DNA from: Acidobacteria bacterium 28-9
GTDB taxonomy: Bacteria; Acidobacteriota; Blastocatellia; Pyrinomonadales; Pyrinomonadaceae
Direction: 5' to 3'
Assembly (NCBI GenBank): GCA_002050355.1
Contig: MWYY01000072.1
Span: 1 to 64,000, forward strand
Length of the DNA: 64,000 nt
Both the position numbers and the translations under genes were made by a program. This document shows positions 53,066 through 56,960 of the stretch, one piece after another (position 1 is the stretch's first letter; the number at the start of each line of letters is the position of its first letter). The notes below the pieces were generated by a model. That model was given only the letters and a program-made list of their open reading frames with translations. It had not been told where the DNA came from and made no database searches.

Positions 53066-54052
53066 ATGAAAAAACGCATTTTCAGCGGCGCGCAGCCAAC
53101 CGGAAATCTGCACATCGGAAACTACTTAGGCGCACTAAAAAATTGGGTTGCGCTGCAAAACGAATATGAGAGTTTTTTCTGCATCGTCAATCTGCACGCC
53201 GTAACCGTAGCGCAAGAGCCGAAAGTTTTGCGGCAAAAGACTTTAGATTTAGCGCGTATTTACCTGGCTTCGGGCATTGACCCGCAAATCTCAACCGTTT
53301 ATGTTCAATCCGACGTTTCAGAACACAGCGAACTTGCCTGGATTTTAAATTGCGTGGCGCGTATCGGCGAGCTTGAACGAATGACGCAATTCAAAGATAA
53401 ATCTCGCGTTCGCGGTGAAAACGTTTCCGCCGGATTGCTCGTCTATCCGACTCTGATGGCATCCGACATATTGCTTTACAAAACCGATTTGGTTCCCGTC
53501 GGACACGACCAGAAGCAGCATCTTGAAATAACACGTGACTTGGCGACACGCTTTAACCGCGATTACGGCGAGACGTTCAAAATCCCTGATGCATTTATTT
53601 CGCCGACGGGCGCGAAAATTTTATCGCTCGCCGACGCAGCGAAAAAAATGTCGAAATCAGACGAAAACTTAAATGGCTCGATATTTTTATTGGATGATGC
53701 CGACATTATACAGAAAAAAATAAAACGCGCCGTAACCGATTCGGGAACCAACATAAAATTTGATGAATCACGTCCGGCAATCAATAATTTGTTGACGATT
53801 TACCAATTGCTTACCGGCAAAACTGCCGAAGAATGCGAAGCGAATTTCGCGGGTAAAGGCTACGGAAATTTGAAATCGGAACTCGCCGAAACGGTCGTCG
53901 AATTCTTAAGACCGTTTCAAGAGCGCGTCAAACAAATTGACGACGGAGAACTGGAAAAAATCTTGAAAACCGGCGCGGAAAAAGCACGCTCGATTGCGCG
54001 GGAAACTTTAAAAACCGTTTATGAGCGAATGGGAATCGTCGGCGCGCGATGA
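53066..54052 (+). CDS. trpS: Tryptophanyl-tRNA synthetase
   Basis: 328 residues, the usual length. Class I signatures: PTGNLHIGNYLGA (HIGH-type) and KMSKSDEN (KMSKS), plus VGHDQKQHLEITRDLATRFN. It charges tRNA-Trp. The stop codon overlaps the ATG of the hicA-like remnant (ATGA), an arrangement inherited from a coupled gene. Confidence 0.97.
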   Translation: MKKRIFSGAQPTGNLHIGNYLGALKNWVALQNEYESFFCIVNLHAVTVAQEPKVLRQKTLDLARIYLASGIDPQISTVYVQSDVSEHSELAWILNCVARIGELERMTQFKDKSRVRGENVSAGLLVYPTLMASDILLYKTDLVPVGHDQKQHLEITRDLATRFNRDYGETFKIPDAFISPTGAKILSLADAAKKMSKSDENLNGSIFLLDDADIIQKKIKRAVTDSGTNIKFDESRPAINNLLTIYQLLTGKTAEECEANFAGKGYGNLKSELAETVVEFLRPFQERVKQIDDGELEKILKTGAEKARSIARETLKTVYERMGIVGAR

Positions 54053-54236
54053 AAATTAAAGATATTGTTAAAATCATTGAAAAAGACGGCTGGATTTTGA
54101 ATAGGACGCGCGGCGCAGTCATCGTCTGTATAAACATTCGACAAAGCGCGGAACGGTTACGATTGCCGGACACGGCGGCGACGAACTTCACCCGAAAACC
54201 GAACGTAGTATTTTAATTCAAGCAGGATTAAAATAG
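54049..54236 (+). pseudogene. Frameshifted HicA-like toxin
   Basis: From ATG 54049 the product begins MKIKDIVKIIEKDGWILNRTRG, a HicA start. Family sequence then continues in another frame: SHRLYKHSTKRGTVTIAGHG and ELHPKTERSILIQAGLK, ending at TAG 54234-54236. Two extra bases after CGCGGC account for the shift. The original frame runs to a TAA within the gene. The mRNA-cleaving toxin is thus inactive unless the frame is corrected. Confidence 0.8.
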
Positions 54237-54246
54237 TTTGGAGATT

Positions 54247-54335
54247 ATGAAAAAGGCAGCAAAATATTTAGTCGTAATCGAAAAGGGCGCAAACAATTAC
54301 TCAACATCGAAATCCCCGAATCCGTTTTAGCTTAA
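54247..54335 (+). pseudogene. Internally deleted HicB-like antitoxin
   Basis: ATG 54247 gives MKKAAKYLVVIEKGANNYS, the HicB start, and soon stops at TAG 54328-54330. A C-terminal piece, NIEIPESVLA, follows in another frame up to TAA 54333-54335. The large central part of HicB, normally about 40-80 residues, is missing. Together with the broken hicA this is a decayed toxin-antitoxin pair. Confidence 0.65.
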
Positions 54336-54340
54336 AAATT

Positions 54341-54703
54341 ATGTCAGACAAAATTATCGTTTATGAAAAGCCCACTTGAACGACCTGTCGCAATTTGGCG
54401 CAGTTGTTTCGTGAAAACAACATAGAACATGAAAGAATAAATTATTTCGCCGAAGAATTGACCGAAGAAAAACTCCGCCGTCTATTGAAAAAACTCGAAC
54501 TCACGCCATTTGAAATTCTGCGAAAGAAGGAAACGATTGTTCAAGAATTGAATTTGTCTAAAGAGACCGAGCCGGACGAAATTATAAAATTTATTGTCGA
54601 GCATCCGAGTTTGCTGCAACGTCCGATTGTAGAACTCGGCGATAAAGCCGTTATTGCCAGACCGATTGAAAAAGCGATGGATTTGATAAATTCGGGAGAA
54701 TAA
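54341..54703 (+). CDS. ArsC/Spx-like protein with in-frame TGA at the CxxC position
   Basis: ATG 54341 gives MSDKIIVYEKPT, then TGA (54377-54379, codon 13), then TTCRNLAQLFRENNIEHERI and an intact ArsC/Spx-like thioredoxin fold to 54703 (LTPFEILRKKE, LLQRPIVELGDKAVIARP). In this family the active site is CxxC; TGA sits exactly at the first cysteine, giving UTTC if read as selenocysteine. The downstream 108 codons are undamaged. A hairpin right after the TGA (54379-54384 with 54403-54408, inner stems and a 6-base loop) is compatible with, but not a textbook, bacterial SECIS. Alternatives: one nonsense mutation in a recent pseudogene, or start at an internal codon losing the active site. Confidence 0.75.
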
Positions 54704-54711
54704 TACTTAAG

Positions 54712-55044
54712 ATGTCAGAAATTGCAAAGACTCCAAAGCCGCCGTATTACTCGGTAATTTTCACTTCAATCCGAGTCGAAGGCGAAGAAAACAGCTACAA
54801 CGAAATGGCGCAGCGAATGGCTGAACTCTCCGCGCAGCAAAAAGGTTTTCTCGGAATGGAACACGCCCGCAGCGAAGGTTTGGGAATCACAATTTGCTAC
54901 TGGGAAACTCTGGAAGCGATTGCCGACTGGCGCGAAAACGTCGAACACAAAATCGCGCAAATTAAAGGTTACGAAACGTTTTACAAAACATTTGCGACAA
55001 GAATTTGCCGCGTTGAAAGAGATAATGTTTTTGAACGAGAGTAA
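54712..55044 (+). CDS. ABM-domain (antibiotic biosynthesis monooxygenase-like) protein
   Basis: 110 residues. Ferredoxin-like alpha+beta fold with YYSVIFTSIRVEGEENSYNE, QKGFLGMEHARSE and ITICYWETLEAIADWRENVEH, typical of the YgiN/ABM superfamily, whose members act on quinones, heme or aromatic substrates. It starts 8 bases after the ArsC-like gene and may be co-transcribed with it and scpA. The substrate is unknown. Confidence 0.85.
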   Translation: MSEIAKTPKPPYYSVIFTSIRVEGEENSYNEMAQRMAELSAQQKGFLGMEHARSEGLGITICYWETLEAIADWRENVEHKIAQIKGYETFYKTFATRICRVERDNVFERE

Positions 55045-55071: not shown

Positions 55072-55845
55072 ATGGAACAGTCGACCGAACAATTGACATT
55101 TGATTTCTTCACCGAAAAGCCGCACATTGTCGCGACTTCTTCGACGGATGAAATCAACCTCGAACTCGGCGCATTTGCCGGACCGCTCGACCTTCTTCTT
55201 TTTTTAATCAAACAGGAACAGGCGAATATTTTCGATATTCCGATTGCGCGCATTGCGAACGAATATTTGAAATACATTCGATTGATGAAAAGTCTAGACA
55301 TTGCTCTGGCAGGCGATTTGCTTGTTATGGCGGCGACTTTGATTGAAATAAAATCGAAAATGCTTCTGCCGCGCGAGATTTCTGATGAGACGGAAGAAGG
55401 TATTGAAGACCCGCGCCGGGAACTTGTTGACCGTCTGCTCGAATACGAACGATTTAAATCGGCGGCGCAGATGCTCTACACTCGCTCGACTATCGAGCAG
55501 GCGGTTTTCCCGCGCGGGCAAATCGAAACGGACGAAAACAACACGGAAGTAAACGTCTCGGTTTTCGATTTGCTCAATGTTTTCCAAAAAATCATCGCAC
55601 GCCAAACCGAAGAAATTCAGATAGAAATCCAGCGCGAGGAGATGTCTCTATCGGAAATGATAAAAAACCTGAAACGGCGTATCCTACAAACTAAACAGTT
55701 AAATTTGCTTGAATTTTTTCGGGAAATGCAAAGTAAAACCGAACTCGTTCTGGCATTTATCGCTGTTCTGGAAATCGTCCGCACCGAAAGCGTAAAACTG
55801 CTGCAAGATAAAACCTTCGGTGTAATTATTTTAAGTAAAGTTTAA
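55072..55845 (+). CDS. scpA: Segregation and condensation protein A
   Basis: 257 residues from the ATG at 55072. The kleisin signature FAGPLDLLLFLIKQEQANIF and IPIARIANEYLKYI are followed by MAATLIEIKSKMLLPRE. ScpA bridges the SMC heads together with ScpB to organise the chromosome. scpB follows after about 85 bases that include a short 7-bp periodic repeat. Confidence 0.94.
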   Translation: MEQSTEQLTFDFFTEKPHIVATSSTDEINLELGAFAGPLDLLLFLIKQEQANIFDIPIARIANEYLKYIRLMKSLDIALAGDLLVMAATLIEIKSKMLLPREISDETEEGIEDPRRELVDRLLEYERFKSAAQMLYTRSTIEQAVFPRGQIETDENNTEVNVSVFDLLNVFQKIIARQTEEIQIEIQREEMSLSEMIKNLKRRILQTKQLNLLEFFREMQSKTELVLAFIAVLEIVRTESVKLLQDKTFGVIILSKV

Positions 55846-55856
55846 CCGCAGAGAAC

Positions 55857-55880
55857 TAATAAATGATGAATGGTGAATGA
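55857..55880 (+). repeat. Seven-bp periodic repeat before scpB
   Basis: AATAAATGATGAATGGTGAATGA-like sequence with AATGATG and AATGGTG units, directly upstream of the discarded ATG at 55877. The same unit type flanks the four-helix-bundle gene. Confidence 0.5.
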
Positions 55881-55930
55881 AAAACAAATTCCGCATTTAT
55901 CATTCTGAAAGTCTCTGTGGCGAAAAATTT

Positions 55931-56488
55931 ATGGATTCAGAAATTGAGGAAAAAAAAGCGCGAAGCATTGCCGAACTCGTTTCAATAATCGAAGCCTTGA
56001 TTTTCGTTGCCGACGAGCCTTTAAGCATCAAAATCTTGGCTGACGTATTAGAAGAAGAAAAGGAAATTATTCAATCTGCAATCGAAGAATTGTCAAAAGA
56101 ATATGAAGAGCGCGATGGCGGTTTGCAGTTGCGGGAAATCGCCGGCGGCTGGCAAATCTCTACGCGCACCAAGTTTCACGCGGAAATTCGCGCGTTTCTA
56201 AAAACTCGCCCATCGGCAAAACTGTCGCTCGCCGCGCTGGAAACACTCGCCGTTATCGCATACAAACAACCGGCAACCGTGCCGGAAATTTTAGAAATTC
56301 GCGGCGTCCAATCGGCTTCGGCAATCAAAACTCTGCTCGACAAACGCCTGATTGTAGCCCGCGGCAGAAAGGAAACCGTCGGGCGACCGATGCAATACGG
56401 CACGTCGAAAGATTTTCTGATACAGTTTGGTCTAAAGGATTTGTCGGAGTTACCGTCAATCGAAGATTTCGAGGACCTTGTTCATTGA
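55931..56488 (+). CDS. scpB: Segregation and condensation protein B
   Basis: 185 residues from the ATG at 55931; an upstream in-frame ATG at 55877 would add residues without family character. Winged-helix repeats: IIEALIFVADEPLSIKILAD, KLSLAALETLAVIAYKQPAT (the ScpB hallmark) and VGRPMQYGTSKDFLIQFGL. It acts as a dimer with ScpA. The stop is followed 2 bases later by the left arm of a 27-bp inverted repeat. Confidence 0.94.
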   Translation: MDSEIEEKKARSIAELVSIIEALIFVADEPLSIKILADVLEEEKEIIQSAIEELSKEYEERDGGLQLREIAGGWQISTRTKFHAEIRAFLKTRPSAKLSLAALETLAVIAYKQPATVPEILEIRGVQSASAIKTLLDKRLIVARGRKETVGRPMQYGTSKDFLIQFGLKDLSELPSIEDFEDLVH

Positions 56489-56489
56489 A

Positions 56490-56960
56490 CATTTAACATT
56501 CAACATTTATCATTTACCGAAGTCTTAAAATCAAGATATAACTTATATGCATTTAGTGTTCAATGATAAATGATAAATGATAAATGAAAAAGGATAATGT
56601 TACTTATGAAAAAGCGTATAAATTTGCAATTCGGATAGTAAAGGCGTTTCAGTACTTGCGAGAAAATAAGAAAGAGTTTGTATTATCAAAACAGATGCTC
56701 AGAAGCGGAACTTCCATCGGCGCAAACATTGCCGAAGCAAACGGAGCAATCTCCGAAGCGGATTTTTCGAGTAAAATCAGCCTCGCTTATAAGGAATGTT
56801 TAGAAACAAAATACTGGCTCTCACTTCTTAAAGATACTGATTATATAAATGAACGAACTTTTGAAAGTATCTATATGGATGCCGATGAACTCGCAAAAAT
56901 TTTATTCTCGATTCTGAAAACAACCAGAATTGATAAATGATAAATGTTGAATGTTAAATG
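56490..56960 (+). mobile_element. Inverted-repeat-bounded cassette holding a four-helix-bundle gene
   Basis: A perfect 27-bp inverted repeat: left arm 56490-56516, right arm 56934-56960, composed of AT-rich 7-bp periodic units (AATGATA, AATGTTG). The arms touch the scpB stop on one side and supply the ATG of rluB (56958) on the other. A further run of AATGATA units lies at about 56552-56584. The block looks inserted as a unit between scpB and rluB. Confidence 0.75.
56584..56940 (+). CDS. Four-helix-bundle protein (23S rRNA-intervening-sequence type)
   Basis: 118 residues. The family pattern is YEKAYKFAIRIVKAFQYLRE, QMLRSGTSIGANIAEANGAI, FSSKISLAYKECLETKYWLSLL and ELAKILFSILKTTR. These small proteins were first seen inside inserted segments of 23S rRNA genes and occur widely in intergenic spots; their role is unknown. 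Here it is enclosed by 27-bp inverted repeats between scpB and rluB, with the ATG within a 7-bp periodic repeat. Confidence 0.93.
   Translation: MKKDNVTYEKAYKFAIRIVKAFQYLRENKKEFVLSKQMLRSGTSIGANIAEANGAISEADFSSKISLAYKECLETKYWLSLLKDTDYINERTFESIYMDADELAKILFSILKTTRIDK

Follow-up and report, generated by a model that had tools for sequence, protein, structure and literature searches.

Selenocysteine (Sec) has been described in arsenate reductases with a UxxS motif, from the Sargasso Sea (PMC1088965) and listed as TIGR00014 in PMC13188914, and in arsenate reductases with a UxxC motif, from GOS (PMC2398784), with NF041106 listed in PMC13188914. Tables in these last two papers suggest that NF041106 is probably the GOS 'arsenate reductase 2' (UxxC, cd03032). 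'ArsC-like' selenoproteins are also listed for two deltaproteobacteria (PMC1794560). Here we followed up a candidate of this kind in a draft genome of the Pyrinomonadaceae, within a window of 64,000 nucleotides, which is the whole stretch of DNA that was analysed. A first-pass annotation, made from the letters of the window, had proposed a UxxC selenoprotein and had pointed to ArsC-like UxxC selenoproteins in metagenome surveys. In the mostly open-access literature that we searched, we found neither the UxxC ArsC branch described below nor anything on selenocysteine together with Pyrinomonadaceae.

The gene opens with ATG at 54341 and continues through 12 codons (MSDKIIVYEKPT), a TGA at 54377-54379, TTCRN and an undamaged remainder to a TAA at 54701-54703. 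On re-reading, this frame stood as first annotated, with the TGA exactly at the catalytic Cys of the family and the '108 codons' behind it being 107 sense codons plus the stop. Translated through the TGA, the product matches Pfam ArsC (PF03960) at 53.7 bits (cut-off 24), whereas the table 11 ORF list holds only a 102-aa piece with a TTG start at 54395. Standard gene calling truncates or drops a gene of this kind, and does so here in a bacterial group known mostly from metagenomes. Comparison with the nearest two TGA genes gave dN/dS values of 0.15 and 0.17 downstream of the TGA, which points to purifying selection; over 207 pairs with pS <0.6 the median was 0.41 and the maximum 0.82, values that we attribute to saturation and base composition, so that the ratio is informative for near pairs only. 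We put the probability that this gene encodes a selenoprotein, with Sec13 in place of the catalytic Cys, at roughly 0.93, a prediction based on the Cys found in homologues at the same locus, the presence of Sec machinery and a conserved hairpin of bacterial SECIS (bSECIS) form past the TGA. The features of the locus are collected in Table 1.

Table 1. Features at and around the predicted selenoprotein gene, in window coordinates
Feature	Position	Strand	Remarks
trpS (Pfam tRNA-synt_1b), upstream neighbour	53066..54052	+	ends in TGA used as stop
arsC-family gene, predicted selenoprotein	54341..54703	+	120 residues, Sec13 included, then TAA; from frame, Pfam, homologues and fold
TGA codon, predicted selenocysteine, residue 13	54377..54379	+	TGA/Cys alternation among 97 homologous loci
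Hairpin of the first-pass annotation	54379..54408	+	not conserved; overlaps 5' arm of the 54403-54421 hairpin
Cys16 codon (TGT), second residue of UxxC	54386..54388	+	candidate resolving thiol
Predicted bacterial SECIS hairpin	54403..54421	+	stem 54403-54409 with 54415-54421, loop CGTGA 54410-54414
Small protein, weakly ABM monooxygenase-like	54712..55044	+	22.5 bits against a cut-off of 23.1; 8 bases past arsC
scpA, downstream neighbour	55072..55845	+	
scpB, downstream neighbour	55877..56488	+	

The window protein is like NF041106 in being an ArsC family member with a predicted Sec in UxxC, but it scores 23.7 bits against that model's cut-off of 85. Its highest NCBIfam score (87.5 bits) is to TIGR00014, with which it shares the arginine triad and, as predicted, the placing of Sec at the catalytic Cys; this score, however, is below the cut-off of 106.05, and the window has UxxC where the TIGR00014 form has UxxS. 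The UxxS protein L225, from another genome of the same phylum, scores 149.9 bits and so passes that cut-off. We also scanned nine more proteins from this group and its relatives (L024, L107, L112, L208-L210, L212, L215, L219), which against NF041106 scored 24.1 bits or less or were not listed. Because the window protein falls below both the TIGR00014 and the NF041106 cut-offs, as do the nine others, it appears to form a new branch of the known Sec-ArsC kind.

An AlphaFold2 model of the protein (pLDDT 88.2) had as its closest PDB matches the arsenate reductases 3rdw and 3f0i (TM 0.85-0.88; chains A 0.86-0.88). It shares its fold with R773/E. coli ArsC (1i9d; TM 0.83) and with V. cholerae 3f0i (0.88), and it shares their arginine triad as well: R61, R94 and R107 are invariant in a 26-sequence alignment (A2) and match the triad R60, R94 and R107 of R773 ArsC. 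By alignment offsets, U13 corresponds to Cys12 of R773 ArsC and Cys10 of Spx, and R60 and C12 mutants of R773 ArsC are named in PDB entry titles. Cys16 is invariant in a 36-sequence alignment (A3), and in A2 it is missing only from the UxxS protein L225. Unlike the window protein with its predicted UxxC, R773 ArsC and 3f0i have a Cys in CxxS. The best explanation of these features is that the product is an ArsC-family thioredoxin-fold reductase with a Sec nucleophile in the motif U13-T-T-C16. In such an enzyme the U13 selenolate would attack the substrate, which could be arsenate, another oxyanion or a disulfide, while R61, R94 and R107 would hold the oxyanion as in R773 ArsC. C16 would then resolve the intermediate by forming a selenenyl-sulfide, which may make glutathione/glutaredoxin dispensable, and thioredoxin or glutaredoxin could recycle the enzyme. 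By kinship, arsenate is the likeliest substrate, at about even odds, and a function as general thiol or oxyanion reductase is a possible alternative.

The protein might instead be a selenoprotein that serves as a redox-sensing transcription regulator of the Spx type, given that Spx has CxxC-R at the same place as well as the fold. The top phmmer match in the PDB was Spx 7f75 at 51.5 bits, with arsenate reductase 3f0i at 51.1, and the Cys relative L107 lies above the Spx/MgsR cut-off (76.2 vs 75.05 bits). The window protein itself, however, stays below that cut-off (TIGR01617; 59.5 vs 75.05 bits), and Spx lacks an Arg at alignment position 61, where 7f75 has Ser and the 26 aligned sequences keep the first arginine of the R773 triad. 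The model also favours the arsenate reductases of R773, Vibrio and Yersinia (TM 0.83-0.88) over Spx (0.66-0.76), although TM separates ArsC from Spx only partly, since other putative arsenate reductases or relatives gave 0.54-0.78. We therefore consider a regulator of this type unlikely and retain the reductase.

We found matches to the gene at E 1e-8 or better in 96 of 119 Pyrinomonadaceae genomes, giving 98 loci, of which 97 were readable at the Sec position. The first-pass annotation had suggested looking there for Cys or TGA, and those were the codons found: TGA at 59 loci, TGC at 25 and TGT at 13 (38 Cys loci together). It had also named TGA accompanied by other disabling mutations in close relatives as evidence against recoding, and 57 of the 59 TGA genes proved free of any further defect in the frame; the other two, both from draft genomes, have a TAG (L099) and a broken frame (L116). 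TAA or TAG codons seen in matches from some relatives were considered as stops at the Sec codon and rejected: none lay there, and those traced were terminal apart from the TAG in L099. Single-TGA matches in G019, G066 and G068 were likewise rejected as Sec codons, being the terminal stops of Cys forms. One genome (G098) holds a TGC copy and a TGA copy together (L071, L100).

The codon was next compared with the Sec machinery across 95 genomes, with the distant homologue L118 (G102) left out and G098 counted as TGA. SelA was present in all 59 TGA genomes and in 28 of the 36 Cys-only genomes (Fisher p 2.5e-4, kinship ignored). For tRNA-Sec, counted present at E 1e-9 or better, the figures were 59/59 and 26/36 (p 2.5e-5, kinship ignored), and for both together 59/59 and 25/36 (p 7.7e-6, kinship ignored). 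Every one of the 11 compared genomes that lacked SelA or tRNA-Sec (8 without SelA, 10 without tRNA-Sec) had Cys. In scoring SelA, short or weak matches were treated as absent and partial matches above 50 bits as present (among the TGA genomes, G014, G084, G094 and G099); the match in G019 was counted absent because its 24.6 bits, although above the cut-off of 22.8, came from 43 of 367 positions. SelB above 240 bits, with at most 10 candidates scored per genome, was found in 54 of 59 TGA and 24 of 36 Cys genomes, and the five TGA genomes without it are all drafts. A kinship-controlled test of SelA had 2 independent pairs, too few to decide, with 0.7 going the same way and 0.0 the opposite way. 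Several genomes had more than one tRNA-Sec match: four in G093, and two each in G036, G037, G100 and G106.

The source genome (G000), a draft that is 86.6% complete, has all four of the components whose presence had been proposed as a check (selA, selB, selC and selD): SelA at 467.7 bits, SelB at 404 bits covering positions 1-578 of 581, tRNA-Sec at 72.9 bits with anticodon tca, and SelD at two loci above the cut-off (354.1 and 351.5 bits). Both SelD loci have a single in-frame TGA in the context SCAG-TGA-VAKLAP. These two loci (L125/L126; C29:120497-121423 and C97:2281-3207) are about 86% identical across 2.2 kb, and they reflect either a duplication or a second strain within the draft genome.

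Together, the machinery in the genome, the intact TGA frames of relatives and the tracking of TGA with SelA and tRNA-Sec agree with the original proposal of Sec at the first Cys of the CxxC motif. Readthrough or reassignment of UGA, with some other amino acid such as Trp or Cys inserted, would give the same frame, and the evidence bearing on it is sequence throughout; we judge it very improbable, however, given that the tRNA-Sec (tca), SelA, SelB and SelD are at hand and that all 38 loci without TGA have Cys. General reassignment was rejected because 7 of the 15 window ORFs examined, trpS included, end in TGA; TGG is used by 14 of the 15.

The best 80 of 236 confirmed named loci, whose genomes overlap the family set, comprised 39 TGA and 41 Cys loci. 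The records of these best 80 are mostly labelled Pyrinomonadaceae, Blastocatellia, Chloracidobacterium or Acidobacteria; the 13 labelled otherwise (Nitrospira, Melainabacteria and Obscuribacter, Gemmatimonadetes, Ignavibacteriales, Thermoleophilaceae and HR37) are all Cys, and one TGA locus (L178) is labelled 'bacterium' only. L145, from a MAG labelled Aridibacter famidurans, has the TGA form. Searching the class (162 genomes) gave five genomes outside the family with matches at E 1e-12, and each of these had Cys. A sample of 396 genomes from the phylum contained 27 outside the class that matched at E 1e-14, and 20 of these were read: three had TGA in the same YxKPT-U-xxCR form as the window (L209, L210, L211), 12 (L212-L223) had TGA in UxxC of a second type, one had UxxS (L225) and four had Cys (L208, L224, L226, L227). 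The second type reads 'ICTKT-U-STCRKAVALL' and similar, and by eye many of its members have a hairpin of the GCAAGGC-GGTC-GCCTTGC kind soon past the TGA. The three scanned proteins of this type (L212, L215, L219) reached no NCBIfam cut-off.

We then asked what could direct Sec insertion at the window's UGA. The bSECIS rules in section 5 of PMC13188914 call for a loop of 3-9 nt with a G in its first two positions, a stem of 4-16 bp, a loop 16-37 nt from the UGA and an energy at or below -7.5 kcal/mol. The hairpin at 54403-54421 has this geometry, with 7 bp and a 5-nt loop (CGUGA) that has G second and U third and lies 30 nt past the UGA. In energy the bare 19-nt hairpin gave -3.7 kcal/mol, and -5.2 with three bases added on each side, against the -7.5 of the rule; longer stretches gave -7.4 and -9.0 kcal/mol only where a second small hairpin was included. 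Across the 59 TGA genes the 25-nt stretch averaged -7.83 kcal/mol. At gathering thresholds, Rfam returned a tRNA as its sole match in the window, with no SECIS, and no match on the SelA locus (L001).

Loop position 2 is G in all 59 TGA genes, and the base after it is U or G in 58. All seven pairs form in 43 of the 59, while 500 synonymous resamplings of these proteins averaged 4.8 such genes and never exceeded 10; the remaining 16 genes miss one to three pairs. Cys genes with SelA have the loop G in 16 of 29 cases and all seven pairs in 3, and those without SelA in 0/8 and 1/8, these eight not being independent since most belong to one clade. Kinship-controlled tests had 4 independent pairs each, too few to decide, with 2.3 the same way and 0.0 opposite for the loop G, and 1.8 and 0.1 for the stem. 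When the window and 39 named TGA loci were aligned without gaps, giving 38 distinct rows, 94.7% of cells were paired, compared with at most 68% for slid versions, and 0/500 shuffles matched either the paired percentage or the covariation score. On the same rows 4 pairs had changes on both sides, a number reached by 133/500 shuffles, and 'further pair types' were below the shuffles (499/500 as high). RNAalifold recovered six of the seven pairs unaided. The loop-closing pair, which joins two third codon positions, is CG in 36 genes, TA in 22 and CA in 1, and requires no fewer than 5 changes across the 57 TGA rows of the tree; the pair between residues 23 and 26 is TA in 36 (mostly Phe-Asn) and CG in 23 (mostly Leu-Ser) and needs only 1. 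These compensatory pair changes, one of them at synonymous positions on both sides, support this hairpin as the putative SECIS element, which SelB carrying Sec-tRNA-Sec would bind to decode the UGA.

The first-pass annotation had pointed to a hairpin starting at the TGA (54379-54408), but the conserved hairpin, with G at loop position 2, lies at 54403-54421. That Sec is inserted under the direction of the 54379-54408 hairpin is hardly tenable. Its fold has the lowest energy for the window RNA in isolation (-11.1 kcal/mol), yet on the 38 distinct sequences 63.4% of its cells were paired against 63.6% in shuffles, there was no covariation, and its loop lacks G in the first two positions, as had already been noticed. 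The 54403-54421 fold beats this overlapping one only after nine or more bases, counted from the TGA onward, have been omitted, as would be the case inside a ribosome. In bases 13-60 past the TGA, the minimum-energy fold contains at least 5 of the SECIS pairs in 40 of 59 TGA genes and 12 of 37 Cys genes. That the TGA is a nonsense mutation in a pseudogene, or a sequencing error, is barely conceivable: a single change does turn TGC or TGT into TGA and degenerate HicAB-like pieces, named by eye, lie directly upstream, but the same codon is TGA at 59 of 97 homologous loci with 57 frames showing no other defect, comparison with the nearest two TGA genes shows purifying selection on the frame past it, and the hairpin past it has been kept through compensatory changes. 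Since one change suffices to make TGA from TGC or TGT, the lack of TAA and TAG at this codon does not discriminate.

Sec and Cys appear to have replaced one another repeatedly at this locus. A 108-row protein tree (93 family, 15 outside; truncated or distant L099 and L116-L118 left out), built from few columns, required 19 Sec-Cys changes, 4 of them forced by well-supported branches, compared with 35.4 on average for shuffled labels. Both forms occur in the window's own genus, TGA in G014, G015 and the window and Cys in G010, G016 and G017. Within the flanks examined, a trpS homologue lies near arsC at 18 TGA and 12 Cys loci, and an scpA homologue at 29 TGA and 17 Cys loci; in another clade (two loci judged) arsC lies between gdhA-like and radA-like genes, named by eye. 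We think it fairly likely that these genes form an uncatalogued UxxC ArsC subfamily of Acidobacteriota, with many Sec/Cys exchanges at one locus and an RNA hairpin that dictates protein residues. Arg24 is found in 59/59 Sec forms, 16/29 Cys forms with SelA and 0/8 Cys forms without SelA, and on this reading Sec forms would keep it since its codon makes up the SECIS loop. Residues 23 and 26 are coupled in nearly every Sec form, Phe23 occurring with Asn26 and Leu23 with Ser26; this coupling would keep the base pair, although it is weak alone because it reflects one clade-level change. If the reading is true, the locus would be a natural experiment on how an enzyme is affected by selenium and by the cost of its RNA signal. 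The Sec/Cys series at trpS-arsC-scpAB, within a genus and even in one genome, would allow direct tests of selenocysteine retention or loss, and of the constraints that an RNA signal within the coding region places on the surrounding protein.

The small gene directly behind arsC has a homologue near arsC at 8 of 97 loci, counting that of the window. In the window, the gap between trpS and arsC (54043-54337) holds degenerate HicA-/HicB-like pieces spread over two frames, as judged by eye, and at 56584-56940, between scpB and a pseudouridine synthase gene, lies a gene of the 23S rRNA intervening sequence protein family (PF05635).
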